Shown: piece by piece, positions 9,108 to 30,711 of the stretch
Position numbering within the stretch: the first letter of the stretch is position 1
Layout of the letters: every line of letters starts with the position of its first letter
NCBI RefSeq assembly: GCF_900107435.1
Contig: NZ_FNPZ01000001.1
Span: 1,336,960 to 1,400,959, forward strand
From: Herbiconiux ginsengi
Lineage (GTDB): Bacteria > Actinomycetota > Actinomycetes > Actinomycetales > Microbacteriaceae
DNA: 64,000 bases
Direction: 5' to 3'
Notes under the pieces: generated by a model
Told to the model about the DNA's origin: nothing
Seen by the model: only the letters and a program-made list of their open reading frames with translations
The model's database searches: none
Made by a program: the position numbers and the translations under genes

Positions 9108-10469
9108 CTAAAGCCCCACGGTGTCGAGACGGCGGATGCGCTCGAACAGGTCCACATCACCCACCTGGCCGCCCTTCAGCAGCAGCTCGAGCCCGTCGAT
9201 CGCCGCATCGGGCGTGTGCGCGGTGCAGAGCACGATGTTGCCCTCGGGGTTCGCCGCGATCGACAGCGACTCGACGCCCAGCAGGCGGGTCACGCGACTC
9301 GACGTGTCGCCGCCGCAGACGATCACGCGCCCTGCCGCTCCGGCTCGGGCGGCGCCGTCGACGACGGCCGCCGCGGCCTCTGCGAGGGCGACGAGCACCG
9401 GGCGCGCGCCCAGAGTCGTCAGGTCGGCGTCGTCGGAGGTGAGCGCGACGCTCGTTCCGCCACGCAGGGAGGAGACCACCGATGCGATGAACTCGGCGTC
9501 GGGTCTGAGCGGCAATGGCTGCACGGTCCAGCCCGCCGCGGCCGCCGCATCCGCCTGGCCCCGCGTGCGCGCCGAGCGGCTTCCCGACACCGCGAGCACC
9601 GCCCCTCGTGAAGGAGTCGCGCGGGGCAGCGGGTGCCCCGTGCGGTGCGCAGCCCGGGCGATGCCGAGGCTGAGACCCCCCGAACCGATCGCGAACACCG
9701 GCCGCTGCAGGCCGGCCACCGCTGAGCCGACGAGGTCGACGTGCCCCTCGTCCACGGCGTCGAGCACGACCGCAGCCGCCGGTGAGCCGGCGATCTCCGC
9801 CCCGAGGGCCGCCGCGTCGCGATACGCGGTGTAGGGCACCGAGCCGATCGGCAGTGCGGTCTGCGCCGAGAGGTGGCGCGCCAGATCCGACTCCGTCATC
9901 GGGGTCGACGGATGCGCCGACATCGTCGGCTGTCGATCGAGCCGGTGCACCGTGCCGCCCTCGGCCGCGAAGTGGTGGCCGAACACCGTGTAGCGCCCGA
10001 AGTCGGGCTGCGCGAACAGCAGCGGCACGGTGCGGGTGCCCACGACCTCCCGCCCGATCTCGATCACGCGGCCGAGGCTGCCGATCGAGGGCGAGGAGTC
10101 GGCCGTGGAGCAGGCCTTGTATTGGATGACCGCTGCACCCGTGCCCACGAGAGCCGTGAGCGCGGGTCGCACCTCGGCCTCGATCTCGGCGGTGGGCAGC
10201 GACCGCGCGATGCCCGCGATGCCGATGACGTCAGCGTCGCGGGCAGCGCGCGCGAGCGCGGCCGGCGTCGGCACGCCGACCAGCAGCCGACCTCTCCAGC
10301 CACCCCGGGCGAACTGCAGCAGTGCGTCGACGCTGCCGGTGAAGTCGTCGCCGTAGAACGCGGCCGTGGGCCGCGTGGCCGGCGATTCAGGCGCGGCTCC
10401 GGGCCGCAAGGCCGGTGCGGCTGTGGCGTCGGGCCCCACGAAGGCCCCCGTCGCGGCAGGGTCAGACAC
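9108..10469 (-). CDS. oiaK: Four-carbon acid sugar kinase family (DUF1537), probable 3-oxo-isoapionate kinase
   Basis: A 453-residue DUF1537 protein. The N-terminal sugar-acid-binding domain begins with the diagnostic FYGDDFTGSVDAL motif. The C-terminal nucleotide-binding domain carries VICGGDTSSRVTRLLG, whose GGDTS loop is typical of the family. These kinases phosphorylate aldonic-type acids in the cytoplasm. The GTG start overlaps the stop of the RuBisCO-like gene by 8 bases, and this kinase/RuBisCO-like pairing is the signature of the phosphorylating branch of D-apionate catabolism (3-oxo-isoapionate to its 4-phosphate). A different branched or four-carbon acid substrate cannot be excluded. 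It is the last gene of the operon. Confidence 0.72.
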   Translation of the reverse strand: MSDPAATGAFVGPDATAAPALRPGAAPESPATRPTAAFYGDDFTGSVDALLQFARGGWRGRLLVGVPTPAALARAARDADVIGIAGIARSLPTAEIEAEVRPALTALVGTGAAVIQYKACSTADSSPSIGSLGRVIEIGREVVGTRTVPLLFAQPDFGRYTVFGHHFAAEGGTVHRLDRQPTMSAHPSTPMTESDLARHLSAQTALPIGSVPYTAYRDAAALGAEIAGSPAAAVVLDAVDEGHVDLVGSAVAGLQRPVFAIGSGGLSLGIARAAHRTGHPLPRATPSRGAVLAVSGSRSARTRGQADAAAAAGWTVQPLPLRPDAEFIASVVSSLRGGTSVALTSDDADLTTLGARPVLVALAEAAAAVVDGAARAGAAGRVIVCGGDTSSRVTRLLGVESLSIAANPEGNIVLCTAHTPDAAIDGLELLLKGGQVGDVDLFERIRRLDTVGL

Positions 10470-11718
10470 GAACCGGCCCGAACACCTCGGTGGCGCGGCG
10501 CAGCGCCGGCGAGCGCTCCAGGGCGAGGGCGGCGCTCTCGCCCGATTCGGCCGACGCCCAGGCTTCGCGCATGCTGGCCACGCCCGCGGCCGCGCCATCG
10601 GGATGCCCGTGGATGCCGCCGCCGGCGAGCACGAGCAGATCGGTGGTGCCGACCGCGGCGTAGGTCGCGTGGGCGAGTCCGCCCCACTGGCCCGACGACA
10701 GCACGGGAACAGTGGGGCTGAGCCCGAGCAGCGGCTCGCGCACGGCGGCGATCGCGGCGAGCACCTCGGCATCCGACTCGTAGAACTTGTTGCTGATGCC
10801 GTTGGTGTGCAGGTGGTCGGCGCCGGAGAGCCGAGCGATCTTCTGCCAGGCGCCGAAGGCGATGCCCACCTGATCCGAGCGGCTGATCGCGCCGAACATC
10901 GTGCGGTGTCCATGGATGGGCAGCGACGAACGCGACCGGAGGTACTCCAGCCCCGCGAGGCCGACGAGGTTGATGCACGCCATCACGCAGGTGCCGCCGG
11001 CGGCGGCCACCAGGTCGTGGTTGGCCTCCAGCCGCCCGATGTCGTCGGTGATGTTGAAGGCGTACATCGGCTTCACACCCGTGCGGTCGGCATGGCGCTC
11101 GAGCACGGGCATCACCGCGCGTACTCGCTCGGCCAGCGGCGCCGTCGGCCCGTTGCCCTGCAGCTCGTCGTCTTTGATGAAGTCGACTCCGGCGCCGACG
11201 AGCTCGGTCACGACCTCCGCGAGCTCCGAGGGAGAGAGCCCGATGCTGGGCTTCACGATGGTGCCGATCATCGCGCCGGTCTCGCGGCCCATCAAGCGGC
11301 GGGTACCGGCCACCCCGAACGCCGGCCCGGGGTAGCGCGAAGCGAAGGCCGGTGGCAGCTCGAGATCGAGCAGTTTGATCGCGGCCAGCTCTTTGATCTC
11401 GAACAGGTTGCCCGCAACGGCGGCCAGCAGGTTCGGCAGCGACGGCCCGAAGTTGTCGAGCGGGAACCGCAGGCGCAGCACGGCCCGGAGTCGCTCGGCC
11501 GGATCGCCGACGGTGCCGGGCAGCGCGGACGACCCCGTGAGCGGCACTTCCTCGAGCGAGACGATCTGTGCGGCGAACCGCGCTCTCAGGTCGGCGGACT
11601 CGCGGGCGACGCGCACGAAGGTGCCGGTGGACTGCTCCCCGGCGAGCACCTCGGCGGCCCGTTCGAGGGGCAGAGAGGTCTCGATGTGGTAAGTCGCGAC
11701 GACGTCGTCAGTGCTCAT
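10462..11718 (-). CDS. RuBisCO-like protein (form IV), probable 3-oxo-isoapionate-4-phosphate decarboxylase or transcarboxylase/hydrolase
   Basis: A 418-residue RuBisCO large-subunit homologue. Aligned by eye with true RuBisCO it keeps the base Lys (K156 in GTIVKPS), the metal/carbamate motif KDDE (182-185), the His-Arg of the substrate site (H271-R272) and a Lys in loop 6 (K311). The second active-site Lys of the KPK motif is Ser158, so it is not a CO2-fixing enzyme. Next to a DUF1537 kinase, such proteins cleave or decarboxylate 3-oxo-isoapionate 4-phosphate (OiaX/OiaT functions). Which of the two reactions applies cannot be read from the sequence. It starts 4 bases after the GH127 stop. 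Confidence 0.8.
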   Translation of the reverse strand: MSTDDVVATYHIETSLPLERAAEVLAGEQSTGTFVRVARESADLRARFAAQIVSLEEVPLTGSSALPGTVGDPAERLRAVLRLRFPLDNFGPSLPNLLAAVAGNLFEIKELAAIKLLDLELPPAFASRYPGPAFGVAGTRRLMGRETGAMIGTIVKPSIGLSPSELAEVVTELVGAGVDFIKDDELQGNGPTAPLAERVRAVMPVLERHADRTGVKPMYAFNITDDIGRLEANHDLVAAAGGTCVMACINLVGLAGLEYLRSRSSLPIHGHRTMFGAISRSDQVGIAFGAWQKIARLSGADHLHTNGISNKFYESDAEVLAAIAAVREPLLGLSPTVPVLSSGQWGGLAHATYAAVGTTDLLVLAGGGIHGHPDGAAAGVASMREAWASAESGESAALALERSPALRRATEVFGPVRV

Positions 11719-11722
11719 CGTG

Positions 11723-13699
11723 TCACCACACCACCGGCAGCCAGACCGACATCTCGCCGGCCCCGCGATTGCCCCAGGCGAAGTAGGGCACGAGCCGGGC
11801 CGGCACGGTGCCGAGCTCGCCGGCCCCGAGGTCGTCGTAGAGGGCCTCTCCGGTCTCGGGGAGCAGGGCCAGCTCGGTGTCGAGGGCGAGCATCCGCTGC
11901 CCCGCGATCTCGGTCTCCACCGGGCGCAGATCGGCGTTGCGGCGCAGGGCCACGCGCTCCACGCCGACGCCCGTCGGCAGGTCGGCGGTCTCCACGCAGT
12001 AGACGAGCGGCCCGCGTTGCACGGCCACCTGGTTCGCGAGCTCCTCGGCCAGGCGGTGTCCCCGCAGCACGCGCACCGCCATCGGCAGCTCGAGCGTCAC
12101 CACGTCGCCCACCGTCCAGTCGCGGTCCAGTCGCAGGTAGGAACCGGATGCCGCGGGCCGGCCGGCCTCGTCGTTCACGGCGATCGTGGCATCCTTCGAC
12201 CAGCCGGGCACCCGCAGGTGCAGCGGCATCCCGCCGCCGCGGGCCTCGGTCACCACGAAGCGGATCGTGCCGTGCCACGGGTAGTCGCTCTCCTCGCGCA
12301 GGCGCAGCGCGCGGTTGCCGTCGTCGACGCCGAACTCGCTGCCGCCGTAGTGGTGCACGTACAGTCCGTCCGCCGAGACCGACGCCGCGCGCTCGCCGAA
12401 GCGGGCCAGGGTGCGCGCCGTGTTGGGCGGGCAGCAGAAGCAGCTGAGGTAGCGTTCGCGCAGGCGTTCGTCGGAGGGCGGCGGCGCGGGCACCGGGTTC
12501 AGCCCGGTGTCGCCGGCCCGTCGCAGCGCGTAGGGCAGATCCCGCACCTGGCGCAGCGGGTTGGTGTAGAGGTACTCCGTGCCGGTCAGGCTGATGCCGG
12601 CGAGCAGGCTGTTCAGGGCGACCTGCTCGATCACGTCGGCGTAGCGCGCGTCGGGCCGGAGGGCCAGCATCCGCTCGCTCCAGAGGATCAGGCCGATGTT
12701 CGCGCACGACTCGTTGTGCGCTGTGGTGTGCGGCAGCTGGTAGGCGCGACCGTAGGCCTGGTGCACGCGGCTGATCTGCTCCTGCCAGGGCGAGGCATCC
12801 GGCGACGCCCCGTCGTAGAGTGCGCCGCAGCCGCCGGTGATCGCCAGCTTCGTTCCGACCACGTCGGTCCACAGGGTGTCGAGCACGCCGTGCAGCTGGT
12901 CGTCGCCCGTCTCGGCCACCAGGTCGGCGAGACCGGCGTAGAGGTAGTTGGCGCGCACGGCGTGGCCGGCGACCGTGGTCTGTTCGCGCACGGGCACGCG
13001 GTCCTGGTTGTCGTCGCCCCCTTCGAAGTCGTCGCGCACGCGCACGAACGCCTCGGCCAGCCGCAGCCAGCGCTCCTCGCCGGTGGCGCGGTAGAGCTCG
13101 ATCACCGCCATGTAGTGCGACGGGCAGATGGCGCTCTTGGCGAGCTCGAGCGGCTTGTTCGTGGCGAGGTCTTCGAGAAAGCCCGCGGCCTTGCGGGCCA
13201 CGTCGAGCAGCGTCGTGCTGCCCGTGACCTCGTAGTGGCGCACCGCGGCCGTGATGAGGTGGCCGAGGTTGTAGGTCTCGAAGTGGAACCGGTCGGCCAG
13301 CGCGGCGACGTCGACCTCGTTGCGGGTGGCGATGAGCGTGGGGGTGTGCAGGTAGCCGTCTTCCCGCTGCACCGAGGCGATGAGCCGGGCGAGCTCGTCG
13401 ACGAGCTCGGCGAGCCAGGGCTCACCGGTGGTCTCGAGCTGCGAGACCGCGGCTTCGAGCCACTTGTAGAAGTCGCCGTCCATGAACGGCGGGCCGAGGT
13501 GCTCGCCCTCTTCGAGGCCGGCCGCCACGCGGAAGTTGCGGAGCCCGGGGCTCACGGCGGGGTCGCTCAGTGCCTGCCACATGTCGGGCACGGTGTGCTC
13601 GTGGGTGCGGCGCAGCACGTCGCCCCAGAAGCCGGTCGCCCAGCGTGCGTCGGCCGCGGTGAGCGGGCGCAGGGGCGCGATGGTGGTCGTGGTCGTCAT
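11723..13699 (-). CDS. GH127 beta-L-arabinofuranosidase (DUF1680)
   Basis: A 658-residue glycoside hydrolase with an (alpha/alpha)6-barrel followed by beta-sandwich domains, close to the usual HypBA1 length. The zinc/cysteine active site is visible as E330-x-C332 (HNESCANIG) and the Cys pair C422-C423 in CFCCPPN; in this family one cysteine is the nucleophile held by Zn. It removes terminal beta-L-arabinofuranose from plant glycans. No signal peptide is present, so it should act on imported oligosaccharides. It overlaps the upstream racemase-like gene by ATGA, placing it firmly in the GH78-oiaK operon. Confidence 0.88.
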   Translation of the reverse strand: MTTTTTIAPLRPLTAADARWATGFWGDVLRRTHEHTVPDMWQALSDPAVSPGLRNFRVAAGLEEGEHLGPPFMDGDFYKWLEAAVSQLETTGEPWLAELVDELARLIASVQREDGYLHTPTLIATRNEVDVAALADRFHFETYNLGHLITAAVRHYEVTGSTTLLDVARKAAGFLEDLATNKPLELAKSAICPSHYMAVIELYRATGEERWLRLAEAFVRVRDDFEGGDDNQDRVPVREQTTVAGHAVRANYLYAGLADLVAETGDDQLHGVLDTLWTDVVGTKLAITGGCGALYDGASPDASPWQEQISRVHQAYGRAYQLPHTTAHNESCANIGLILWSERMLALRPDARYADVIEQVALNSLLAGISLTGTEYLYTNPLRQVRDLPYALRRAGDTGLNPVPAPPPSDERLRERYLSCFCCPPNTARTLARFGERAASVSADGLYVHHYGGSEFGVDDGNRALRLREESDYPWHGTIRFVVTEARGGGMPLHLRVPGWSKDATIAVNDEAGRPAASGSYLRLDRDWTVGDVVTLELPMAVRVLRGHRLAEELANQVAVQRGPLVYCVETADLPTGVGVERVALRRNADLRPVETEIAGQRMLALDTELALLPETGEALYDDLGAGELGTVPARLVPYFAWGNRGAGEMSVWLPVVW

Positions 13700-14418
13700 C
13701 GGAGCTCCGTTCCCGGTCGCGTTCCGGCGTCGAAGGGCGCGTCGAATCCGGCGTCGAAGGGCGCGTCGAATCCGGCGTCGAGGATGCTCCGCAGCCGGTC
13801 GATCCCCGGAGCGACGCTGGTCAGTACCGGCACGTCGGTGTGGGCCGCGTCGGCCGCGGAGGCCATCGAGGCCTGGGCGAGCACGATCACGTCGGCCGCC
13901 GGGGCGTGCCGTTCGATCGCGGCGGCCACCAGCCGGTCGTGGCTGTCGCGGTCGCCCGAGGAGACGGCGGCGAACGCGCCCTCGATCACCTCCTCGGCGA
14001 TCTGCACCGACGCGCCGGCCAGGGCCGCGCGCTCGCGCAGCAGCACCACCGTCGGCACCAGCGTCGTCGGCAGCGTCGCCAGCACCGCGATCCGGGTGCC
14101 GGTGCGCACCGCGTCGTCGGCCATGGCCTCGTCGATGCGCAGCACCGGGATGCCGGCGGCCTGCGCGGTGGCCGCCGCCAGGTGCGAGATGGAGGAGCAG
14201 GTGAACATCACCGCGTCGGCGCCGCCGGCTAGGGCAGCCGAGGCCAGATCGATGAGCCGCTCGGGCACGGAGGCGGCGCGTTCCGGATCGCCGAGATCGG
14301 CGACGATGCGGTCGTCGAGGTAGTTCACGATCGTGGCATCCGGGATCGTCGCACGTGCGCGGTCGGCGATCGGCCCGATCACCACAGCGCCGGTGTGCAG
14401 CAGGGCGACCCGGGTCAC
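13696..14418 (-). CDS. Asp/Glu/hydantoin racemase superfamily protein with one catalytic cysteine
   Basis: A 240-residue protein with the two-domain racemase fold pattern. The first-half cysteine is present (C74 in MFTCSSISHL), but the position of the second catalytic cysteine (usually GCT or similar) reads VLAQASMA (residues 179-186). A two-base racemase mechanism is therefore unlikely. One-cysteine relatives include decarboxylases and isomerases. The gene lies between a rhamnosidase and an arabinofuranosidase, upstream of the RuBisCO-like/kinase pair, so a role on a branched sugar acid is inferred. The C-terminus carries a 24-base tandem duplication (FDAPFDAG repeated). GTG start; GTGA overlap with GH78. 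Confidence 0.7.
   Translation of the reverse strand: MTRVALLHTGAVVIGPIADRARATIPDATIVNYLDDRIVADLGDPERAASVPERLIDLASAALAGGADAVMFTCSSISHLAAATAQAAGIPVLRIDEAMADDAVRTGTRIAVLATLPTTLVPTVVLLRERAALAGASVQIAEEVIEGAFAAVSSGDRDSHDRLVAAAIERHAPAADVIVLAQASMASAADAAHTDVPVLTSVAPGIDRLRSILDAGFDAPFDAGFDAPFDAGTRPGTELR
13724..13781. repeat. 24-bp tandem repeat at the 3' end of the racemase-like gene
   Basis: A 24-base unit beginning CCGGCGTCGAAGGGCGCGTC occurs twice in full (13724-13747, 13748-13771) and once in part, adding eight residues (DAGFDAPF type) per copy to the protein tail. The in-frame unit length leaves the reading frame intact. Confidence 0.85.
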
Positions 14419-17024
14419 GCTGCGCTCACCGCCTCGGCCAGGGCGAGTTCGCGTTCGTGCACGCCGTGGCCGACGTGCTCGGGCTCGCCGCCGTCGAGAT
14501 CGATGATGCCCGTCGCGCCCACCGGCACCTCGACGCGCACGCGCAGCGTGCCGTCGACGATGTGCCACGAGACGGAGGCTTCGCCATAGGGCGTGCGATG
14601 GCGGGCGGATGCCGAGGTCAGGCCTCCACCGGGCCGCGGGGCGAACCGGATGACGCGGTAGCCCGCCTCCTCCGGCGCGAGGCCGGCCACCACGCGGTGC
14701 AGCCAATCGGCCACGGCGCCGAGCGCGTAGTGGTTGAACGAGGTCATCGAGCCCGGGTTCACCGTGCCGTCGGGCAGCATCGAGTCCCAGCGCTCCCAGA
14801 TCGTGGTCGCGCCCATCGACACCTGGTAGAGCCAGGAGGGGCATTCGCGCTCCAGCAGCAGGTCGTAGGCGGCGTCGAGGCGACCCTCGGAGCTCAGCGC
14901 GTCGGTCACCAGCGGCGTGCCCACGAATCCGGTCGCGATGCGGCTGCCGGATGCGCGCACGAGCTCGGCGAGCCGGTCGGCGGCTCGGGCGCGGAGGCCG
15001 GCCGGCAGCAGCTCGAACCGCAGGGCGAGTGCGTAGGCGGTCTGCGCATCCGACGCCATCCGCCCGTCGTCTCCCACGTAGCGGCCCACGAAGGCGTCGC
15101 GTGCCTCATCGGCGAGCGTCGTGTAGGAGGCTTCGGCCTCCGTGTCGCCGAGCACTCCGGCCATCCGCGCCACGAGCCGGGCCGAATGGGCGAAGTACGC
15201 GCTCGCGACGAGGTAGCGGTCGGTCTGTGCATCGGCGGGATCCTGCGGTGGTGCGGCGGGGTCGAGCCAGTCGCCCAGCTGGAACCCGGTGTCCCACAGG
15301 CGCGAGGGTCCGGCGATGTCGGCCTGCAGATCGACCCAACGGCGTGCGCTGTCGAACTGGGCGCGCAGCACTCCGGTGTCGCCGAAGCGCTGGTACAGCG
15401 TCCAGGGCACCACCGTCGCGGCGTCGCCCCAGGCGGCCCCCGGGCGCTGCGGGGTCCACATCGTGTCGGCCGGGATGACCGGCACGTACCAGGGCACCGT
15501 GCCGTCGGGCAGCTGCTCGGCGGAGAGGTCGCGGAGCCAGCCGGTGAGCATGCCCGACACGTCGAAGAGGAAGGATGCGGTGGGCGCGAACACCTGGATG
15601 TCGCCTGTCCAGCCGAGGCGCTCGTCGCGCTGCGGGCAGTCGGTGGGCAGGTCGACGAAGTTGCCGCGCATGCCCCACACCACGTTCTCGTGCAGGCGGT
15701 CGAGATCGGGCTCCGACGAGGAGAACCAGCCGGTGCGCTCGAGGTCGGAGTGCAGGATGCGCGCGATCAGCGCGCCCTCGGTCACATCGGCGTCGAGATC
15801 GCCGGCCCAACCCTCGACCTCCACGTAGCGGAAGCCGTGGAACGTGAAGCGCGGCTCCCACTCCTCGCCCTCGGGGCGGCCGGCGAAGGTGTAGTGGTCG
15901 GTGGAGCGCGCGTTGCGCAGTGGGCGGGTGTAGAGCTCGCCGTCCTGGAGCACCTCGGCGGTGCGCAGCGTCACCGTCGTGCCGGCGGGAGCGGTGGCAC
16001 GCAGGCGCACCACACCCACGAGGTTCTGCCCGAAGTCCAGGATGCGCCGTCCGCTCGGCGTGGTGAGCACGGCGAGCGGGGCGCGCTCCTCGGTCACGCG
16101 CACGGGGGCGGCGGTGGGAGCGACCAGGGTGGCCGGATCGCGGTGGCGCAGCTGCACGCGGTCCCAGTCCGTGTCGTCGTAGCCGGCCCGCGACCATCCG
16201 GGCAGTTCGGCGCGGGCGTCGTAGTCCTCGCCGTCGTAGATGCCGGAGGCGATGATGGGGCTCGGCGCCGAGCGCCACGAGGTGTCGGTCGCCACCACCT
16301 CGCGCGAGCCGTCGGCGTAGCTCAGTTCGAGCTGGCCGAGGAAGGAGAGGTCGTCGCCGTAGACGTTGCGGAAGCCGCCGCGCCAGCCGAGGCGTCCGCG
16401 GTACCAGCCGTCGCCGAGCCAGGCGCCGATCGCGTTCGGGCCCTCGGAGAGCTGGGCGGTGACGTCGTAGGTGTAATAGCGCAGCCGCTTGCCGTAGACG
16501 GTCCAGCCGGGGGAGAGCAGGTCGTCGCCGACGCGGCTGCCGTTGAGCTCGGCCTGGTAGAGGCCGTGCGCCGTGGCGTAGAGGCGCGCGCGCACGAGTC
16601 CCGGGCGCACCGGGAATTCCCGGCGCACGAGCGAGGGCCGGCGGTCGTCTCTCAGCGGGTTCTCGTTGCGGATCGCGCCGATCGGGCCTGCGACCCAATC
16701 GCCGGGCTCGAGCAGCCCGGCTTCCACCCGCGCCCAGTCGCCGGGCGCGCTCCAGGAGCCGTCGGCGCCGGCGACGCTCACGCGCACCCGGCTGCTCTCG
16801 CGGGAGACCAGTGACTCGTCGGGCCAGGCCACCAGCACCTGCTCTGCCGAGGCGACCTCGAAGGCGCGAACGGAGCCGCCGCGCTCGATCTCGACCCGGT
16901 AGGCGCGCTGCACCCAGCCGGCCGGAGCGCTCTCGACCACCCACGACAGGCGGGGGCGGCTCTCACCGACGCCGAGCGCGTCGCGGTGATGCTCGAAACG
17001 GGCGGCGGAGACGGTGGCCGTCAT
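14415..17024 (-). CDS. GH78 alpha-L-rhamnosidase
   Basis: An 869-residue enzyme with the full GH78 layout: an N-terminal beta domain (about 1-130), the rhamnosidase N-domain around 140-310, the concanavalin-like domain around 320-430, and the (alpha/alpha)6 barrel from about 440 with the diagnostic DCPQRDERLGWTGD motif near residues 455-470 containing the general-acid region. A C-terminal beta-sandwich ends with YGEASVSWHI. It releases alpha-L-rhamnose from plant glycosides or pectin side chains. No signal peptide. AGGAG lies 6 bases before ATG 17024. It is the first gene of the operon and carries a LacI-type box (17042-17055) just upstream. Confidence 0.9.
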   Translation of the reverse strand: MTATVSAARFEHHRDALGVGESRPRLSWVVESAPAGWVQRAYRVEIERGGSVRAFEVASAEQVLVAWPDESLVSRESSRVRVSVAGADGSWSAPGDWARVEAGLLEPGDWVAGPIGAIRNENPLRDDRRPSLVRREFPVRPGLVRARLYATAHGLYQAELNGSRVGDDLLSPGWTVYGKRLRYYTYDVTAQLSEGPNAIGAWLGDGWYRGRLGWRGGFRNVYGDDLSFLGQLELSYADGSREVVATDTSWRSAPSPIIASGIYDGEDYDARAELPGWSRAGYDDTDWDRVQLRHRDPATLVAPTAAPVRVTEERAPLAVLTTPSGRRILDFGQNLVGVVRLRATAPAGTTVTLRTAEVLQDGELYTRPLRNARSTDHYTFAGRPEGEEWEPRFTFHGFRYVEVEGWAGDLDADVTEGALIARILHSDLERTGWFSSSEPDLDRLHENVVWGMRGNFVDLPTDCPQRDERLGWTGDIQVFAPTASFLFDVSGMLTGWLRDLSAEQLPDGTVPWYVPVIPADTMWTPQRPGAAWGDAATVVPWTLYQRFGDTGVLRAQFDSARRWVDLQADIAGPSRLWDTGFQLGDWLDPAAPPQDPADAQTDRYLVASAYFAHSARLVARMAGVLGDTEAEASYTTLADEARDAFVGRYVGDDGRMASDAQTAYALALRFELLPAGLRARAADRLAELVRASGSRIATGFVGTPLVTDALSSEGRLDAAYDLLLERECPSWLYQVSMGATTIWERWDSMLPDGTVNPGSMTSFNHYALGAVADWLHRVVAGLAPEEAGYRVIRFAPRPGGGLTSASARHRTPYGEASVSWHIVDGTLRVRVEVPVGATGIIDLDGGEPEHVGHGVHERELALAEAVSAA

Positions 17025-22625: not shown

Positions 22626-22763
22626 GGCCTGCCTCCCGCACCGTGGAGGACTCGGGTCGGGAAAAGTGGATACGTAGTAGACTCGTCGTCGTCACCCCAT
22701 CGCGGTGGGGCTGGAAGTGAACCCTGGGAGATCCTGCAGTTGTAGGGCCCGGGGTTTCGCGTT

Positions 22764-23151: not shown

Positions 23152-23191
23152 TCGGCACCCAAGTCCACCCCAGTGCATGCATGAGCAATCA

Positions 23192-25108
23192 TCACCTAAT
23201 TCTAGACACGCCTCGTCCAGAGATGTTCCCTCCCAGACGCGCCCAACCGAGCGGCGGCACGTCGACGTGGGTGGTGCGCCACGCCGCATCCGTCGACGGC
23301 ACCGTGAGCTCGAGGGTGCGTTCGACGCGGTCGAGGTTCGCGGCCAGCAGCACGGTACCGCCGGCGGTGCGGGCGCCGAGGGCCCAGAGGAGGCCGTCGG
23401 GGGAGTCGCCCGCGAGGAGCTCCGCGCCGGCGAGGGGCGCGAGGGCCTCGAGCGCTGCGGCGACCGGCAGGGGTGCGCCGTCGGCCGAGCGGATGCCGCG
23501 GGGGCCCCATTCCTCGAAGTACGTCAGCGCGGCGACTCCCGGTATTGCGAGGGCCGCGGCGCTCGCGATGGTCCAGGCGGCGAGCTCGGGCGTGCCCTGG
23601 CGGGGGTCGACGCCACCGGTGAACTGCGCACCGTAGCCCTCGGCGAGGTCGCTGCGCGTGGGGCCGGGCTGGGGCCCGGTGGCCACGTCGTTGAAGCGCG
23701 GCCGCAGCGCGATCGGACCGATCCGCACCGGCAGGCCGGCCGCAGAGTCCACCGTCTGGCGGGCGACCAGGCGCTGCATGGCGACCGATTCGCGCAGCTG
23801 GGCCGAGGAGTGCGCGTGGAACAGCGGGGTCACGGTCGTGACCAGGCCGGCCAGGTCGCCGGGCATCCGGTCGCGCTCCCGGTTGAGTTCGGTGAAGTGC
23901 GAGCGGCTGCCGCCGACGACGGGCGCGGTGACGCCGGCAGCGTCGAGGGCGTCGCGCAACGGGGCCACCCACTCGGTCACCGAGACGTGGAAATACGGGT
24001 GGAACACGGCCACGCGGGCGACCCGGACGCCCCTCAGTGCCTGCGCGAGGGCGTCCAGCTTCGCGCGGTCGGGTTCGCCGAGCACCACCCGCACGTCGAG
24101 GGGCAGGCCGCGGTCGGCCGCGCGGCGGAGGGCCGCCGGCCAGTTCGGGGTGTCGAGATCGAGTTCGACGAGCAGCTCCGCACCCACCGTCGGCAGGTCG
24201 GGTGGCTCCGGATCGGGCGCCGTCGACGCCGAGACGCCGACGGCGGGGAACGGCCCGGCCGGTTCGAGTCGGATGCGCGCCGTCGCGGCACCGGCATCGG
24301 GTGCGGGCCCAGACGCGAAGTCGGAATCGGAGCGCGAGCCGTGGCGGTGATCGGACTCGGCACCCGAGCCGGCCGTCGAGTCGGTGCGCGCGACCGAGGC
24401 GGATGCGGGGGTCGAGCGGGCGTCCGCTGCGGGTTCGGGGGCGGCGCCGTCGTCGACTGGCCGCACCTCCACGTCGATGCGCTGCCGCACGCGCTCGCCG
24501 GCGGCGAGATCGTACGGGAACGGCAGCGAGAGCGGCCGGCTGTACGTCTTGAACGACGCATCCGTCCAGTTCCGCTGGTCCTCCATCTCGAAGACGTCAC
24601 CGCTGAAGTCGACGCTGATCTCCGATCCGTCGTCGCTCCAGCGGAGTCCGGCGATGTCGAACACCGGCTGGTGCGCGCTGAGCGCGACCGGGAAGGTCGT
24701 CGACGACCGCGTGCCGTCCGGATGCCGCACCCGCAACGCCGCGCCACTCGTCTGCGGCGGGTGCAGCACCACGAGTCCGGTGCGGTTCGTCGCGAAGGCG
24801 CCGTGTGAGACAGCGTCGAAGGTCACCGAGAGGCCGTCGGGCGTCGCCGCCACCACGACCTCACCGCGCAGGTCGCTGCCGTAGCCGGTCGATCGCAACG
24901 GGATGCGCAGCATCCGCTCGCCCGCCACCGGCTGGCCGGTGATCCACGAGGCCGTGTTCCAGTCGCGATCGCGCACGACGGCGCGGATGCTGCGCAGCAC
25001 CCGCCGCCCGCCGTGCGTGAGGTCGGCGACCTCGTCGCCGCGCACCTCGAGGGCCCACGGCCCCGAGCGCCACACGACGCCGTGATCGTCCCACTCCGTC
25101 TGTTCCAT
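23192..25108 (-). CDS. apnL: D-apionate lactonase
   Basis: A 638-residue protein with three parts. An N-terminal beta-sandwich carries the landmark FEMEDQRNWTDASFKTY (residues 173-189), a TIM-barrel-like middle covers about 280-560, and a C-terminal beta domain ends WARLGGNISG. This is the layout of ApnL, which opens D-apionolactone to D-apionate in the cytoplasm. It is the last gene of the apn operon, 20 bases after apnO. A 60-residue Ala/Ser/Asp-rich, low-complexity insertion (about 217-277) between the first two domains looks like a local expansion. Confidence 0.82.
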   Translation of the reverse strand: MEQTEWDDHGVVWRSGPWALEVRGDEVADLTHGGRRVLRSIRAVVRDRDWNTASWITGQPVAGERMLRIPLRSTGYGSDLRGEVVVAATPDGLSVTFDAVSHGAFATNRTGLVVLHPPQTSGAALRVRHPDGTRSSTTFPVALSAHQPVFDIAGLRWSDDGSEISVDFSGDVFEMEDQRNWTDASFKTYSRPLSLPFPYDLAAGERVRQRIDVEVRPVDDGAAPEPAADARSTPASASVARTDSTAGSGAESDHRHGSRSDSDFASGPAPDAGAATARIRLEPAGPFPAVGVSASTAPDPEPPDLPTVGAELLVELDLDTPNWPAALRRAADRGLPLDVRVVLGEPDRAKLDALAQALRGVRVARVAVFHPYFHVSVTEWVAPLRDALDAAGVTAPVVGGSRSHFTELNRERDRMPGDLAGLVTTVTPLFHAHSSAQLRESVAMQRLVARQTVDSAAGLPVRIGPIALRPRFNDVATGPQPGPTRSDLAEGYGAQFTGGVDPRQGTPELAAWTIASAAALAIPGVAALTYFEEWGPRGIRSADGAPLPVAAALEALAPLAGAELLAGDSPDGLLWALGARTAGGTVLLAANLDRVERTLELTVPSTDAAWRTTHVDVPPLGWARLGGNISGRGVSRIR

Positions 25109-25128
25109 CAGAGCGAGGCTAGCCGCGA

Positions 25129-25992
25129 TCAGCGCGTGATCGCGGGCAGGTGCAGCATGCGTGCGAGGTTCTTGTCGAGCTCGTCGTCGCGGAAGATCTT
25201 CTTCCAGTCGTCCTTGATGATGCTCTCGCGGCCGTAGTCCATGGCGATCAGGCAGGCGTCGCTGAACGGGTTGTCGCCGCGCAGCCCGTTGGCCAGCGCC
25301 ACCTGGGTGTGGCCGTAGAGGATGCTGCGGGCGGCGGCCGCGGGCACGCCCATGGTGTTGACGGTCTCCTCCAGCGCCTCGTTGAGCAGCGCGCCGATCA
25401 TGCACGCGACGGTCTCCACGAGCGTGGGCTCGAGCTGGGCGAGTTGCTTGATGGTGACCCAGTGCACGTCGATCACGGGGGCGTAGATCGCCCGCACGGT
25501 GGCTTCGACGATCGCCTGGTGCTCGGGAGCATCCGATTCGACCGCGGCGATGGCATCCTGCGGCGCCGCGATGCCGCCGAAGGTGTCGGCCCACTCCTCG
25601 GGGCTCTGCCGCTGCAGGAAGATCGAGGGGTGGCAGGGGTGCGCGACGGCCTGGATGACGTCGTCGCGCGTGGTGAGCAGGCCCGCGTACGCGGCGGCCG
25701 GGTCGAGCGTCAGCACGATCGCGCCCGACTTGAGCTGCGGCACCAGGTCGGCGGTCACCGGGCCGAGGGCGAGGTCGGGCACGGCGAGCACCACGATGTC
25801 GGCGTCGGCGACCGCGGTGGCGGCGTCCGTCAGTTCGCGGCCGGCCTCGCGGGTTCGCTCCTGACCGGCCGGCGAGTTCTCGACGTACCAGACGGTGTGG
25901 TCGGTCTTCACGAGGTTGTTGGACACGCGCATGCCCATCTTTCCCCCGGCGCCGATGACGGCGATCTTGTAGGTCTCGGTGGTCGTGCTCAT
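25129..25992 (-). CDS. apnO: D-apionate oxidoisomerase
   Basis: A 287-residue NAD-dependent enzyme. The Rossmann loop GAGGKMG is at residues 14-20. The C-terminal helical domain has phosphogluconate-dehydrogenase-C character (WVTIKQLAQLEPTLVETVAC, LYGHTQVALA, SDACLIAMDYG), the annotation usually given to ApnO. The reaction is oxidation of D-apionate with migration of the hydroxymethyl group to give 3-oxo-isoapionate. It overlaps the OiaC-like gene by ATGA and is followed by apnL, an order that fits only the apiose pathway. Confidence 0.82.
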   Translation of the reverse strand: MSTTTETYKIAVIGAGGKMGMRVSNNLVKTDHTVWYVENSPAGQERTREAGRELTDAATAVADADIVVLAVPDLALGPVTADLVPQLKSGAIVLTLDPAAAYAGLLTTRDDVIQAVAHPCHPSIFLQRQSPEEWADTFGGIAAPQDAIAAVESDAPEHQAIVEATVRAIYAPVIDVHWVTIKQLAQLEPTLVETVACMIGALLNEALEETVNTMGVPAAAARSILYGHTQVALANGLRGDNPFSDACLIAMDYGRESIIKDDWKKIFRDDELDKNLARMLHLPAITR

Positions 25993-26783
25993 GACATGCT
26001 CCTCAAATAGTCGATGCTCTGTTGGGTCCAGGCGCGCTCGGTGCGGATGGTGGTCTCGGGGTCGCCCTGCCAGGGCAGCCAGTGCTCGACGATCTCATCG
26101 ATGCCGCGCTCGCGCGGGCGGACGGTCTCGAGCAGGTGCTCGTAGTCGTGCAGGCCCTCGCCCATCGCGGCGCCGCTGTAGGTGAAGCCCACCCAGCCCG
26201 GCTGGCGCGCGAATGCGAAGTCCTTCGCGTGCACGTTGCCGGTGAGCGCGGCGGTGCGCTCGACGCAGTCGCGGGGCAGCTCGAGGCGCGCCACGACGTT
26301 CGCGGGGTCGAGGCAGATGGTGAGGTGGTCGCTGCCGATCGACTCGACGAGATCGACGAGATCGGTCGTCGCCACCTGCTCGTAGGTCTCCAGGGCCAAG
26401 GTGACTCCGGATGCCTCGTATGCGGGCAGAGCGGCGCGCAGCTGGGCCTCGGCCTCGGCGAGGGTCGGCCGCGAGCCGGGCCCGTAGAGCATGCTGCGCA
26501 CCAGCCGGGCGTCGAACGCCTCGGCCAGCTCGAGATAGCGGGCGAGGTGCGCGGGCGGGATGCCCTTGGTGCCGAGCTGGATGCCCACACCGAAGTCGCG
26601 GGCGGCCGCCGCCGCCTCGGACACTTCGGCGTCGGACATCGCGTCGAGCGGCGCGTAGTCGCAGATCTGGAACAGCTCGACGTCGAGGGCGCGCGTGGCC
26701 TCGAGAGCGCCGCGCAGGGTCAGCGGGTCGTCGACCCGGTCGGAGTGCTGCCAGAAGAAGGCGTAGGTGCCGAGACCGATCAT
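25989..26783 (-). CDS. oiaC: Sugar-phosphate isomerase/epimerase-fold protein, probable 3-oxo-isoapionate decarboxylase
   Basis: A 264-residue TIM-barrel protein of the AP-endonuclease-2/xylose-isomerase-like superfamily. Candidate metal ligands are E132 (LALETYEQ), D159 (CLDPANVV) and H185 (NVHAKDF), with another Glu in MGEGLHDY. In apiose-degrading bacteria a protein of this superfamily (OiaC) decarboxylates 3-oxo-isoapionate to L-erythrulose; its place between apnO and the erythrulose-phosphate isomerases supports this. Without structural data an epimerase role remains possible. It overlaps neighbours by 4 bases on both sides. Confidence 0.7.
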   Translation of the reverse strand: MIGLGTYAFFWQHSDRVDDPLTLRGALEATRALDVELFQICDYAPLDAMSDAEVSEAAAAARDFGVGIQLGTKGIPPAHLARYLELAEAFDARLVRSMLYGPGSRPTLAEAEAQLRAALPAYEASGVTLALETYEQVATTDLVDLVESIGSDHLTICLDPANVVARLELPRDCVERTAALTGNVHAKDFAFARQPGWVGFTYSGAAMGEGLHDYEHLLETVRPRERGIDEIVEHWLPWQGDPETTIRTERAWTQQSIDYLRSMS

Positions 26784-27604
26784 GCGCTGTGCCCCCTTGC
26801 GGATGGGCCGGATGCGCCGGGTGCCGTGGATACGTCGGCCGCCCGTGCCGCCGCCAGGGCCGCCGCCTCGTCGAGAACGGCGATCAGGTTCGCCGGGTCG
26901 TGGCCGAAGCGGCCGAGGAACAGGCCGTCGACCGCGCCGCCGAGGCGGGTGAGCAGGCCCGGCCCGGCGGAACCGCCGTAGATGACCGCGCTGCCGGCGC
27001 GCTCGTCGAGAGCGTCGAGCGCTGCACGCAGAGCGGTGCTGACGGCCACGATGTGCTCGGCGGGCGCCGGTTCAGGGGCGCCGATGGCCCAGACGGGCTC
27101 GTAGGCCACGATCACAGGTCCCGCGGGCGCGCCCGCGAGATCGGCGTGCAGCTGCGCGACCACCGTGGCGGCCGCCTCAGCCGGGGCCAGTCGCTCGCTC
27201 TCCCCGAGGCAGAGCACGGGCTCGAGGCCGTGGGTGAGCGCGGCGGAAGCCTTCGCAGCGGTGTCGGCATCCGTCTCTCCGAACAGGCGCCGGCGTTCGG
27301 CGTGCCCGATCTCGGCCACTCGCACGCCGATCTCGGCGAGTTCGGCCGCCGTCACCTCGCCGGTGAACGCGCCGGGGGCATGAGCTGAGACATCCTGGGC
27401 GCCGATCAGCACGGGAGTGCCCCGGAAGGCCTTCACCGCGGCGGCCACCTGCAGGTAGGTCGGGATGACGAAGAGCCGCACCGTGCCGTCGGCGGCAGCC
27501 GGCGCATCCGGCAGGCGCGCGGCGACGTCGGCGAACCAGGCCGCGGCGCGGGCGTTGCCGAAATACGTCTTGAGGCTGATGCCGACGGTGACCGGTGCGA
27601 TCAT
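26780..27604 (-). CDS. lerI: Triosephosphate-isomerase homologue, probable L-erythrulose-1-phosphate isomerase
   Basis: A 274-residue TIM-barrel protein keeping the catalytic triad of triosephosphate isomerase: K12 (ISLKTYFG), H101 (IGHAERR) and E169 (VAYEPVWAIG). The loop-1 Asn-Trp-Lys-Met motif of housekeeping TIM is replaced by SLKTYFG, the variant seen in LerI/EryH-type isomerases acting on four-carbon ketose phosphates. It converts L-erythrulose 1-phosphate to D-erythrulose 4-phosphate. The stop of derI and this start share one base (TGATG), so translation is coupled. A C-terminal tail of about 15 Ser/Ala/Gly residues is non-essential in appearance. Confidence 0.78.
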   Translation of the reverse strand: MIAPVTVGISLKTYFGNARAAAWFADVAARLPDAPAAADGTVRLFVIPTYLQVAAAVKAFRGTPVLIGAQDVSAHAPGAFTGEVTAAELAEIGVRVAEIGHAERRRLFGETDADTAAKASAALTHGLEPVLCLGESERLAPAEAAATVVAQLHADLAGAPAGPVIVAYEPVWAIGAPEPAPAEHIVAVSTALRAALDALDERAGSAVIYGGSAGPGLLTRLGGAVDGLFLGRFGHDPANLIAVLDEAAALAAARAADVSTAPGASGPSARGHSA

Positions 27605-28080
27605 CAGCAGGAGCCGGTGGTCTCGTACCGGCCGATCACCGCGACCTTCTCGGCCGAGGCCGACGTCGGGTCGAAACGGTAGCCGAGCCATTCGCGCACG
27701 AGGCGGCGGGCGAGCTCGATGCCCACCACCCGCTGGCCCATGGTGAGCACCTGGGCGTCGTTGGAGAGCACGGCGCGCTCCACCGAGAAGGAGTCGTGCG
27801 CCGTGACAGCACGGATGCCTGCGACCTTGTTCGCCGAGATCGCGACCCCGAGGCCGGTGCCGCAGATCAGCAGCGCACGGTCGGCTTCGCCGTTCGCGAC
27901 GAGTTCGGCGGCGGCGATCGCGACCTTCGGATAGGCGGTGTGGCCGTCGGCATCCACGCCCACGTCGACGACGGATGCGACGCCGGGGTTCGCCAGGAGA
28001 TCCTTCTTCAGGATCTCCTTGTAGTCGAATCCGGCGTCGTCGGCGCCGATCACCAGGCGCAGGGGGGTGAGGTCGGTCAT
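27604..28080 (-). CDS. derI: RpiB-family isomerase, probable D-erythrulose-4-phosphate isomerase
   Basis: A 158-residue RpiB/LacAB-type sugar-phosphate isomerase. It has the N-terminal [11 protein letters not shown] phosphate/ring-binding motif and catalytic Cys73 in [20 protein letters not shown]. In erythritol and apiose catabolism this subfamily interconverts D-erythrulose 4-phosphate and D-erythrose 4-phosphate, feeding the pentose phosphate pathway. A ribose-5-phosphate isomerase role is the fallback reading. It sits between lerK and lerI. Confidence 0.78.
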
Positions 28081-28143
28081 GGTCGGTGTCCTTTCGGGGA
28101 GGCGGAAGTCAGGGGCGTCGGCAGCGCCGACGGGTCGGGGAGC

Positions 28144-29889
28144 TCACGGGCGGTCAGCTAGGACGCTCCCGAGCACGGTGGCGATGAGGGCGAGCGAGAC
28201 CGCGCCCGGGTCGGGAGTGCCGATCGAGTGCTCGCCGTGGGTGCGGGCGCGGCCCATGCGCGGCAGGAGGTCGGCGGTGTCGCGCGCCGCGACGGTCGCG
28301 GCCTCCGCGGCCTCGGCCCAGGCGCTCCTGAGGGAGGAGCCGGAGTCGATGCCTCGCGTCAGTGCGGCGCTGAAGGGCACGAGCGCGTCGACCAGGGTCT
28401 TGTCGCCCGGTTCGGCTTTGCCGTAGGCCATGACGCCCGCGGATCCCGCCGCGACCCCGGCCGCGACATCTGCGCCGGCCGGGCTTCCGGTGTCGCCGAG
28501 TTCGCGTGCGACGGCGCGCAGGATGACGCCCCAGAGCGCGCCGGAGGTGCCGCCGGCCTTGTCGGCCCACGCGTCGGCCGCCCGGGTCAGTGTCGTGCCG
28601 GCGCCGGCACCCGCCTCGAGCGCGGCGGTCGCGGCGGCGAGGGCCGCGTGCGATCCGCGCTGCATGCCGATGCCGTGATCGCCGTCGCCGGCGACCGCGT
28701 CGATCCGGCCCAGCTCGTCGACGTGCTCGTCGACCACCGCTGCGATCGCGGCGACCGCCGCGAGCACCGTGGCCGCGGCGGTGCGTGAAGCGTCGTCGGA
28801 GGCCGGGATCTCGGCCTCCGCGTCGGCAGTGGCATCGGCAGCGCTGACCGCGTCGGTCACGCGTTCCGCGGCCACGACCGATCCGCGGCGGTAGGCCGGG
28901 GTGTCGACCGGGGTCTCCCACAGTGCCTCGAGCTCGTCGTCGATCCAGTAGAGCGTCAGCGAGGTGCCGGCCATGTCGAAGGAGGTGCAGAACTCGCCCA
29001 CGTGCGGGTCGACGACCACGACGCCCGCTGTCTCGAGCAGCTGTGCGACGCGGCGGTAGACGACGAACATCTCCTCGTACTTCAGCGAGCCCAGCCCGTT
29101 GAGGATCGGGATCACCCGGGCCCCGCGCGCCGAGTCGACGCCCTCGGGGAGTTCGGCGGGATCGAGCAGCGTCGACACGAGGAGCCCGGCCAGTTCATCG
29201 GCGGTCGGGATGGCGACCTCGTCGATGCCGGGTTCGCCGTGGATGCCGAGCCCCACCGCCATCCGTCCCTCCGGCACGGTGAACAGCGGCTTCTCCGCGC
29301 CGGGGAGCGTGCACCCGGTGAACGCGACGCCGAAGGAGCGGGTGCGCTCGTTGGCCTTGCGGGCGATCGCCGTGACTCCTTCGAGGTCGGCGCCGCGCTC
29401 GGCGGCGGCCGCGGCGGCACGGAACACGGTGAGGTCGCCGGCGATGCCGCGACGGCGATGCTTCTCGCCGATCGGCGCCGACTTCACGTCGTCGGTCACC
29501 GTCACTGTTGCGGCCGCGATGCCCTCGGCGAGCAGGCGATCCTGTGCGGCATCGAAGTTGAGCACGTCGCCGGCGTAGTTGCCGTAGCTGAAGAACACGC
29601 CGCCCCCGGCCTCCGCCGCCCTGGCCACCGAGTGCACCTGCTGAGTCGAGGGTGAGGCGAACAGATTGCCCATCGCTGCGCCGTGCGCGAGTCCCTGGCC
29701 CACCAGTCCGCCGAACGCGGGGTAGTGGCCCGAGCCGCCGCCCACCACGACCGCCACCTGACCCTCGGGCACGACCGTCGATCGCACCACGCCGCCCGTG
29801 ACCCGGCGCACGTACCGGCCGTTGGCCGCCACGAAACCGTCGATCATCTCGTCGGCGAAATCCGCCGGTTCGTTCCAGAGTCTGGTCAT
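28144..29889 (-). CDS. lerK: DhaK-DhaL fusion kinase, probable L-erythrulose kinase
   Basis: A 581-residue single-chain ATP-dependent kinase. The DhaK domain (about 1-330) keeps His55 of GGSGH and the covalent substrate-binding His217 of LGIHGEPG. A 30-residue Ala/Asp-rich linker leads to the DhaL domain (about 375-581), with the Mg-binding DGDHGIGMQRG and GGTSGALWG motifs. This fusion is the form of dihydroxyacetone kinases and of LerK, which makes L-erythrulose 1-phosphate. It is the first gene of the apn operon; ATG 29889 is preferred over an upstream in-frame ATG because GAAGG lies 7 bases upstream and the FadR-type palindrome would otherwise be coding. Confidence 0.8.
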   Translation of the reverse strand: MTRLWNEPADFADEMIDGFVAANGRYVRRVTGGVVRSTVVPEGQVAVVVGGGSGHYPAFGGLVGQGLAHGAAMGNLFASPSTQQVHSVARAAEAGGGVFFSYGNYAGDVLNFDAAQDRLLAEGIAAATVTVTDDVKSAPIGEKHRRRGIAGDLTVFRAAAAAAERGADLEGVTAIARKANERTRSFGVAFTGCTLPGAEKPLFTVPEGRMAVGLGIHGEPGIDEVAIPTADELAGLLVSTLLDPAELPEGVDSARGARVIPILNGLGSLKYEEMFVVYRRVAQLLETAGVVVVDPHVGEFCTSFDMAGTSLTLYWIDDELEALWETPVDTPAYRRGSVVAAERVTDAVSAADATADAEAEIPASDDASRTAAATVLAAVAAIAAVVDEHVDELGRIDAVAGDGDHGIGMQRGSHAALAAATAALEAGAGAGTTLTRAADAWADKAGGTSGALWGVILRAVARELGDTGSPAGADVAAGVAAGSAGVMAYGKAEPGDKTLVDALVPFSAALTRGIDSGSSLRSAWAEAAEAATVAARDTADLLPRMGRARTHGEHSIGTPDPGAVSLALIATVLGSVLADRP

Positions 29890-29912: not shown

Positions 29913-29932
29913 TTGGCAAACCGGTTGACCAA
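29913..29932. promoter_or_regulatory. Operator-like palindrome of the divergent GntR regulator
   Basis: TTGGCAAACCGGTTGACCAA fits the symmetric form TTGG-nn-AACCGGTT-nn-CCAA and lies in the 84-base space between lerK and the FadR-type gene. Its position, upstream of lerK by 24 bases and of the regulator by 42, suits repression of both genes. Confidence 0.6.
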
Positions 29933-29973
29933 TTGCAAGTGGAATCGGATGCCGCGGAAGGTAAGTTGTTCGC

Positions 29974-30711
29974 ATGCCCTCCTATCCCGGCGATCGCAGC
30001 ACCGACATCGCCGCCGCGCTCGGCGCGCTCCCGGCGAGCACTCCGGTGTCAGAAGTCGCCCGGCGCCTGCTCGACCTGTTCACGAGCGGCTCCATCGAGC
30101 CCGGCACCCGGCTGCCACCGGAGCGCCAGCTGGCCGCGACCCTGGGCGTGGGCCGGTCGGCGGTGCGCGAGGCGCTCGCCGCGCTCGAGATCCTCGGCAT
30201 CGTCGACGTGCGGCCCGGATCGGGCACCTATCTGCGCGGGGCGGCGAGCGAGCTGCTGCCGCAGACGCTGCGCTGGGGGCTGCTGATCGGCGAGCGCAAC
30301 ACCGCCGAGCTGCTCGACCTGCGCTCCGGGCTGGAGATCTACGTCGCCCGGCTCGCGGCCGGACGAGCGGATGCCGCGGCCATCGCCGCCCTGTCGTCAT
30401 CGCTCGAGCACATGCGCGGTTCGGCCGCGAACCTCCAGGCGTTCGCCCGCGCCGACCGCGATTTCCACCTCGCCCTCTCGACCGCGGCGGCCAACCTGAT
30501 CCTGGTCGACCTGCTGCACGTCGTGCGCACACTGCTGCAGGTCTACGACGACCGCGCCGTGCATGACGCCGACCAGGTGGCCGCGGCGATCGCCGAGCAT
30601 GCGGAGGTGCTGCGAGCCGTCGAATCCGGCGACGGGGATGCGGCGGCGTCGGCCATGGCGGCGCACATGGCCACCGCATCCGCTCGCCTCAGCGGCGAAG
30701 CGCGCGCCTGA
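29974..30711 (+). CDS. FadR-subfamily GntR transcriptional regulator
   Basis: A 245-residue regulator with an N-terminal winged HTH (about 22-85: PGTRLPPERQLAATLGVGRS, AVREALAALEILGIVDVRPG) and a C-terminal all-helical FCD effector domain (about 100-230). The domain contains Asp/His residues (DRDFHLAL, AIAEHAEVLRA) that bind a metal and carboxylate ligands in related proteins. Divergent from the apn operon, it probably represses it until a sugar acid such as D-apionate or 3-oxo-isoapionate accumulates. It is distinct from the LacI control of the other half of the locus. Confidence 0.85.
   Translation: MPSYPGDRSTDIAAALGALPASTPVSEVARRLLDLFTSGSIEPGTRLPPERQLAATLGVGRSAVREALAALEILGIVDVRPGSGTYLRGAASELLPQTLRWGLLIGERNTAELLDLRSGLEIYVARLAAGRADAAAIAALSSSLEHMRGSAANLQAFARADRDFHLALSTAAANLILVDLLHVVRTLLQVYDDRAVHDADQVAAAIAEHAEVLRAVESGDGDAAASAMAAHMATASARLSGEARA

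Follow-up and report, generated by a model that had tools for sequence, protein, structure and literature searches.

The locus described here lies in a 64,000-nucleotide stretch of the Herbiconiux ginsengi genome (bases 1336960-1400959 of contig C2 in a 4.85 Mb genome), which we call the window and whose G+C content is 64-73% across 2-kb blocks. Two minus-strand operons stand ~11 kb apart, with an ABC importer (18056-21209), an SDR gene and a LacI gene between them, and all the window genes that we name are open reading frames (ORFs). One operon has the order GH78-AGR-GH127-RLP-DUF1537, where AGR is an Asp/Glu-racemase-fold protein, RLP a RuBisCO-like protein and DUF1537 a four-carbon acid sugar kinase; every junction overlaps except GH127-RLP, which leaves 4 nt, and the last four genes form a module at 9108-14418. 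The other is transcribed as DhaK-DhaL, RpiB/DerI-like, TIM/LerI-like, OiaC-like, ApnO-like and ApnL-like genes. The evidence tips slightly towards reading the locus as two modules that break down branched sugars from plant glycans, one for apionate (module 1) and one, the RLP/GH127 set, for aceric acid (module 2). Gene content, linkage, co-occurrence and family scores are directly established for the locus as a whole, and every reaction assigned below is inferred.

The apionate operon is real and of known type; the RLP module is distinct from it and is the more interesting part, but was folded into the apionate pathway in an earlier note on this DNA. The DUF1537 kinase and RLP are present nearby, as that note said, but they probably belong to a pathway other than that for apionate, as they sit in a separate operon and track GH127 and not ApnO. 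The GH127, GH78, racemase-like and SDR genes that lie between the two gene sets were absent from the earlier account.

The only NCBIfam match of the window GH127 is NF049879, the aceric acid hydrolase model. Among solved GH127 structures it is closest to PDB entry 5mqo (600 bits), with the next at 345 bits and arabinofuranosidases also at 232-233, a lead of 255 bits. If 5mqo is, as we take it to be, BT1003, the window protein appears closer to BT1003 than to the arabinofuranosidases. BT1003 is an aceric acid hydrolase according to passages of PMC5698469 and PMC10850190, and a passage of the former gives aceric acid as 3-C-carboxy-5-deoxy-L-xylose, of rhamnogalacturonan-II. The RLP scores 406 bits against the OiaX model NF042437 and the kinase 243 bits against the OiaK model NF042436, both below the cut-off of 700; NF042436 is also missed by the kinase from the OiaX cluster of Rhizobium N324 (470 of 700). 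RuBisCO-type catalytic positions, presumably matched correctly to RuBisCO numbering, are conserved across 36 aligned RLPs. AGR is predicted to adopt the Asp/Glu racemase fold (pLDDT 87), with no more than 22% identity to any of the 50 solved chains listed, and both a single Cys and an AQASM motif, which we take to stand where racemases have their second Cys, are invariant in 21 of 21 aligned sequences.

The linkage of RLP to this type of GH127 was followed in two genome sets. The class set of 296 genomes, our own included, was surveyed for ApnO and RLP. RLP occurs in 10 other genomes (46-82% identity), in seven of which, as in the window, RLP lies in a cluster with DUF1537, GH127 and AGR. The eight RLP-linked GH127s (own included) score 666-779 bits and all other GH127s in the 19 genomes tested score 426 or less, those of eight ApnO genomes without RLP included. 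Among the 16 other ApnO genomes, a high-scoring GH127 is present in seven of the eight with RLP and in none of the eight without (p 0.0014); the gene-presence thresholds for these co-occurrence tests, and for the 80 named ApnO loci considered below, were set by us.

The order set comprises 396 genomes, again including our own. RLP at 63% identity or more is found in 14 of these and a GH127 of more than 600 bits in 14, and they are the same 14 genomes; one genome with a 46% RLP (G002; G and L numbers are our labels for genomes and loci, f and g numbers for groups) was excluded from this count. The next-best GH127 scores 477 bits. The chance probability of this overlap is 5e-26 (hypergeometric), although the genomes come from two families and represent far fewer independent events. 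Overall, RLP-linked GH127s range from 616 to 779 bits, and the others listed do not exceed 477 save one on a Rufibacter plasmid (1189). In 11 of the 12 new order genomes the RLP, DUF1537, GH127 and AGR genes lie near one another, and their order varies; in the last, G302, RLP and kinase are at the start of a contig and GH127 is on another. Since gene order varies among lineages (the window, g49 and two f53 groups), the set appears to be kept together by selection. In G344 and G514 the module has pectinesterase, GH28, BNR-repeat and GH78 genes beside it, and in G514 a GH2 and an apiosidase-like gene as well; the setting in these two genomes is thus one of pectin.

The module also occurs without ApnO. 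The order-set search for ApnO covered the 12 RLP-bearing genomes and found it at 77% identity or more in six, as a 33% homologue in G564 and not at all at E 1e-8 in five, of which G344 is a single contig and G514 two. Nor was ApnO found on the plasmids that carry RLP-kinase pairs in Rufibacter, two Streptomyces and Croceibacterium, the search covering the plasmids and not the chromosomes. The Rufibacter plasmid carries an above-cut-off GH127, a GH140 protein and an RLP-kinase-AGR set, separated from the GH127 by ~144 kb in one direction around the circular plasmid and by 86 kb in the other; we treat it as a separate case because its RLP, which is on a long branch, clusters with OiaX. A tree of the 36 RLPs places the 21 module RLPs, two from Streptomyces and those of G131 and G002 on one side of a branch with 99/97 support. 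Of the 11 RLPs on the other side, five are linked to ApnO (including two named OiaX), three are without ApnO, and the rest come from Paraburkholderia (whose RLP has linked OiaK and ApnL-like genes), Rufibacter and Croceibacterium. Taken alone, the 21 module RLPs form one group with weak support (64/66). Since RLP and kinase track the aceric-acid-hydrolase type of GH127 and not ApnO, they probably belong, to judge from sequence, to a pathway other than that for apionate. The RLP-DUF1537 pairs of L165, L166 and L167, whose plasmids have no close ApnO, adjoin either TRAP transporters and a VOC protein, as in Azospirillum and Roseivivax, or an MFS transporter, as in Chimaeribacter, and would represent further RLP-kinase pathways.

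We propose that in module 2 GH127 would free aceric acid and AGR would isomerise this aldose to the ketose HOCH2-CO-C(OH)(COOH)-CHOH-CH3. The DUF1537 kinase would phosphorylate the CH2OH group, and RLP would decarboxylate the 2-carboxy-3-keto phosphate in the way that OiaX/OiaT would act on 3-oxo-isoapionate 4-phosphate, in which CH2OH replaces CHOH-CH3. This would yield a 5-deoxypentulose 1-phosphate, which an aldolase could split into dihydroxyacetone phosphate and acetaldehyde. Such kinase-RLP chemistry would require a substrate HOOC-C(OH)(R)-CO-CH2OH. That from apiose, with R = CH2OH, would be made by ApnO; for aceric acid, aldose-ketose isomerisation alone would give R = CHOH-CH3. AGR is proposed as the isomerase because it is the only remaining constant member of the set that could carry out this step, which is the least certain of the module. 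An SDR-AGR-DUF1537-class II aldolase operon of Deinococcus would fit an AGR isomerase acting ahead of the kinase. The AGR homologue of Rhizobium C104 (L198) has no adjoining kinase and is uninformative. Module 2 most likely breaks down aceric acid. More tentatively, with a little less than an even chance, GH127-AGR-DUF1537-RLP would be the first catabolic route for aceric acid, leading through a racemase-fold isomerase, a kinase and a RuBisCO-like decarboxylase to 5-deoxypentulose 1-phosphate.

A number of observations weigh against this assignment. The RLP, kinase, GH127 (755 bits against a cut-off of 950 for NF049879) and ApnL all score under the NCBI naming cut-offs, and to our knowledge the AGR family has no precedent as an isomerase. 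The 14 module genomes fall in two families and are not independent. Some RLPs lack the expected company: G075, where RLP is near a contig end, has no GH127 above 351 bits anywhere in the genome; G131 has RLP-DUF1537-AGR only, with no GH127 above 404 bits; two Streptomyces plasmids have a 59-60% RLP and kinase with no GH127 above 393 bits, and the stretches read around RLP give no match to AGR; and the Croceibacterium RLP adjoins a GH127-like gene of just 87 bits. G002 has the 46% RLP and a kinase only. Finally, five g49 genomes (G041, G059, G075, G144 and G192) have ApnO and RLP but lack OiaC at E 1e-10 and show nothing closer to LerI than a TIM of 39-40%, and in these the RLP and kinase may process 3-oxo-isoapionate, so that RLP would also serve apiose. 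ApnO of this OiaC-less type is found in loci L037, L038, L039, L040 and L042 (g49) and L133; two further g49 genomes, G124 and G217, have OiaC, LerI and RLP together.

These g49 genomes bear on the alternative that RLP and kinase are a parallel branch of the apionate pathway, corresponding to OiaK and OiaX/OiaT, that phosphorylates 3-oxo-isoapionate and then decarboxylates or splits it, with GH127 linked through shared glycans. None of the 16 other ApnO genomes in the class set lacks both OiaC and RLP: RLP is present in all five without OiaC as against three of the 11 with it (Fisher p 0.026, all five from a single genus). OiaX and OiaK are the nearest named families, and eight of the 10 other RLP genomes of the class set have ApnO. 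We nevertheless consider such a branch rather unlikely: five of the 12 module genomes of the order have no ApnO and one has only the 33% homologue, RLP presence matches GH127 and not ApnO, the window RLP is separated by the 99/97 branch from the five ApnO-linked RLPs and the one linked to OiaK and ApnL, and the RLP and kinase scores are below the OiaX and OiaK cut-offs. An overlap of this branch with the aceric acid route, in which one RLP-kinase pair serves both sugars by way of the shared HOOC-C(OH)(R)-CO-CH2OH (R = CH2OH or CHOH-CH3), would account for the GH127 linkage and the OiaC-less g49 genomes alike; it is unlikely, as the promiscuity it calls for has no direct evidence behind it and ten module genomes, the window's included, also have an OiaC gene. 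We think it very unlikely that module 2 acts on another pectin sugar acid (an oxidised derivative of rhamnose or arabinose, for example), with GH127 as a beta-L-arabinofuranosidase. GH78 in the same operon would suit this, and a passage of PMC10850190 has almost all characterised enzymes of the GH127/GH146 tree as beta-L-arabinofuranosidases, but the window GH127 favours 5mqo (600 bits) over the solved GH127 arabinofuranosidases (345 and 232-233).

In the apionate operon, the six genes are adjacent (23192-29889), as the earlier note described, and the overlaps that it reported hold at three of the five junctions: DerI/LerI, LerI/OiaC and OiaC/ApnO touch or overlap, and gaps of 63 nt and 20 nt separate LerK-DerI and ApnO-ApnL. 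The note's identification of the operon as the D-apionate pathway is well supported by gene order. Among the best 80 of at least 478 named ApnO relatives, some with loci clipped by contig ends, ApnO, OiaC, LerI, DerI and LerK occur together in 62, beyond what chance would give, and these five core genes with ApnL in 37. Taken singly, OiaC is near ApnO in 79 of the 80, GntR in 71, LerI in 68, DerI in 65, LerK in 64 and ApnL in 51; the sole locus without OiaC is that of Jiangella aurantiaca (L133). The closest ApnO in this sample is from the Corynebacterium-like bacterium B27 (95%), followed by many from Microbacterium (up to 93%), and in the class set ApnO occurs at 64% identity or more in 16 other genomes and at 35% in four. 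A Pantoea plasmid has LerK-LerI-OiaC-ApnO in the same order (59, 49, 50 and 57% identity), with an RpiB gene (49%) close by on the opposite strand. A Rhizobium N324 plasmid carries the OiaX version of the pathway, with an ApnO of 42%. The window genome has a further TIM-family gene on contig C3, 40% identical to the LerI-like one.

Whether ApnL and ApnO fall inside the characterised clusters, which the earlier note had made the test of its reading, came out half in its favour. ApnL scores 195 bits against an equivalog cut-off of 750 for NF049900 (Rhizobium N324 ApnL, 1046), and in the NCBIfam scan of the window proteins ApnO drew no apionate-named model, being 42-57% identical to two proteobacterial ApnO-like proteins (Rhizobium, Pantoea). 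The DerI-like protein is likewise under the cut-off of NF051858 (147 bits, cut-off 240) and passes that of the ribose-5-phosphate isomerase model TIGR02133 (207, cut-off 168). As the curated-name scores are not reached, the actinobacterial set is a divergent branch whose function rests mostly on synteny. In module 1, the SDR would oxidise D-apiose to the lactone and ApnL would open it; ApnO would oxidise and rearrange D-apionate to 3-oxo-isoapionate, OiaC would decarboxylate this to L-erythrulose, and phosphorylation by LerK and isomerisation by LerI and DerI would give D-erythrose 4-phosphate.

The first step of this scheme is proposed from context. A Gfo/Idh/MocA enzyme is present in the Rhizobium, Salipiger and Phyllobacterium apionate clusters; none of the 40 window ORFs compared with Pfam belongs to that family, in a search for it that did not extend beyond the window. 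The window SDR is perhaps a D-apiose dehydrogenase that replaces it. This SDR recurs in 14 of the 80 named ApnO loci and stands beside LacI near ApnL-ApnO-OiaC in five of the six f53 genomes with a close ApnO. SDR and GH78 genes are beside ApnO in L037, L039, L040 and L042 (g49) and in Jiangella aurantiaca; in L037 (G041) the GH78, SDR, gluconolactonase-type SGL protein, LacI and ApnO genes form one stretch in which the SDR adjoins the SGL lactonase. The S-Y-K residues are invariant in eight of eight aligned sequences, which suggests an active dehydrogenase. A function as UDP-sugar epimerase was set aside, identity to the top solved matches being 19-26% and the AlphaFold model (pLDDT 63) too poor to decide.

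Apiose might be freed from glycosides by the GH63/MGH1-like protein, a possible candidate whose gene is at ApnO in L069, L076, L078, L107, L126 and L135 of the best 80 relatives. The one PF13204 (GH140-type apiosidase) match in the window genome (44 bits, cut-off 26.5) is ~0.6 Mb away and was set aside; in G168, G124 and G217 an apiosidase-like PF13204 gene is ~4 kb from ApnO. On a Streptomyces plasmid (L157, 146-4498), genes for an FGGY kinase, a split transketolase and a TIM barrel protein adjoin pectin genes; we take them to resemble the non-oxidative apiose route, and they are not confirmed as apulose enzymes.

Table 1. Genes of the two operons and their surroundings, in window coordinates
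Feature	Position	Strand	Evidence or remark
DUF1537 (four-carbon acid sugar) kinase	9108-10469	-	overlaps RLP gene by 8 bases
RLP, proposed decarboxylase of a 2-carboxy-3-keto sugar phosphate	10462-11718	-	family scores, tree, conserved residues
GH127, aceric acid hydrolase type	11723-13699	-	NF049879 755 bits (cut-off 950); PDB 5mqo 600 bits
AGR, single conserved Cys, proposed isomerase	13696-14418	-	PF01177
GH78 alpha-L-rhamnosidase, leads RLP operon	14415-17024	-	Pfam
Extended SDR, candidate D-apiose 1-dehydrogenase (inferred)	17210-18040	+	Epimerase PF01370
ABC permease	18056-18895	-	
ABC permease, start uncertain	18907-20007	-	
ABC sugar-binding protein	19878-21209	-	69-72% to set adjoining ApnL and GH63-like gene in L069, L078, L107
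LacI-family regulator	21474-22625	+	homologues adjoin ApnO and SDR
ORF without Pfam or NCBIfam match, downstream of ApnL	22579-23289	-	
ApnL-like D-apionate lactonase, divergent	23192-25108	-	NF049900 195 bits (cut-off 750)
ApnO-like D-apionate oxidoisomerase	25129-25992	-	PGDH_C 189 bits; nearest PDB chain by sequence 5t57, 214 bits
OiaC-like AP_endonuc_2 TIM barrel, 3-oxo-isoapionate decarboxylase (inferred)	25989-26783	-	AP_endonuc_2 64 bits
LerI-like TIM-family isomerase	26780-27604	-	TIM 170 bits; start uncertain (ATG 27604 or 27691)
DerI-like RpiB-family isomerase	27604-28080	-	LacAB_rpiB 150 bits
DhaK-DhaL kinase, LerK-like (L-erythrulose kinase, inferred)	28144-29889	-	Dak1 355 bits, Dak2 158; PRK14479 733 bits (cut-off 492)
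GntR/FCD regulator of apionate operon (inferred)	29974-30711	+	faces away from operon
GH63/MGH1-like glycoside hydrolase, possible apioside-releasing enzyme	30813-32081	-	6/80 named ApnO loci

The middle part of the ORF downstream of ApnL presumably resembles the start of a DUF3800-type protein and is perhaps a remnant. Further along the window, on the plus strand (36286-42947), a GH51-type gene (ArfA 618 bits, cut-off 625) and one for a GH35 beta-galactosidase come after a second ABC importer for sugars. LacI and aldo-keto reductase genes are close by, and this is probably an arabinan/galactan locus.

Rhamnogalacturonan-II is a highly complex pectin, and aceric acid is one of its rare sugars. 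The enzyme releasing aceric acid is already known, and its downstream catabolism, if the proposal is correct, would be new. We found no account of aceric acid metabolism among the titles and opening parts of abstracts that searches of the open-licence literature listed, which is weak evidence of novelty. The proposal would also give RuBisCO-like proteins a new physiological substrate and task, assign a role to the orphan racemase-fold family of AGR, provide a genetic marker for aceric acid-using bacteria, and put right the view that an RLP-DUF1537 pair located close to ApnO denotes an apiose branch.

The reactions of the ApnL, ApnO, OiaC, LerI, DerI and LerK families in the oxidative D-apiose/D-apionate pathways were reportedly described by Carter and colleagues in 2018, and genes resembling all six are gathered here in one operon; the window differs in an ApnL that is well under the equivalog cut-off and in having RLP and kinase in another operon. 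PMC6302742 gives a secondary summary of these pathways. The LerK-LerI-OiaC-ApnO order is shared with Pantoea At-9b, and, unlike known apiose clusters, the window has an SDR and no Gfo/Idh/MocA enzyme among the ORFs scanned. With OiaX/OiaT and OiaK, module 2 has in common the pairing of RLP with DUF1537 and the conserved RuBisCO active-site positions, but the window RLP is 42-51% identical and on the other side of the RLP tree, and RLPs of its type are linked to GH127 and AGR and occur without ApnO. The Deinococcus taeanensis plasmid operon (L197), which includes a sugar ABC importer and would belong to an acid-sugar pathway, likewise has SDR (36% to that of the window), AGR (40%) and DUF1537 kinase genes in a row, but has a class II aldolase in place of RLP and no GH127 annotated in the stretch read. 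As to the aceric acid hydrolase BT1003, the window GH127 has 5mqo as its closest solved relative and matches NF049879, although its 755 bits fall short of that model's cut-off of 950.

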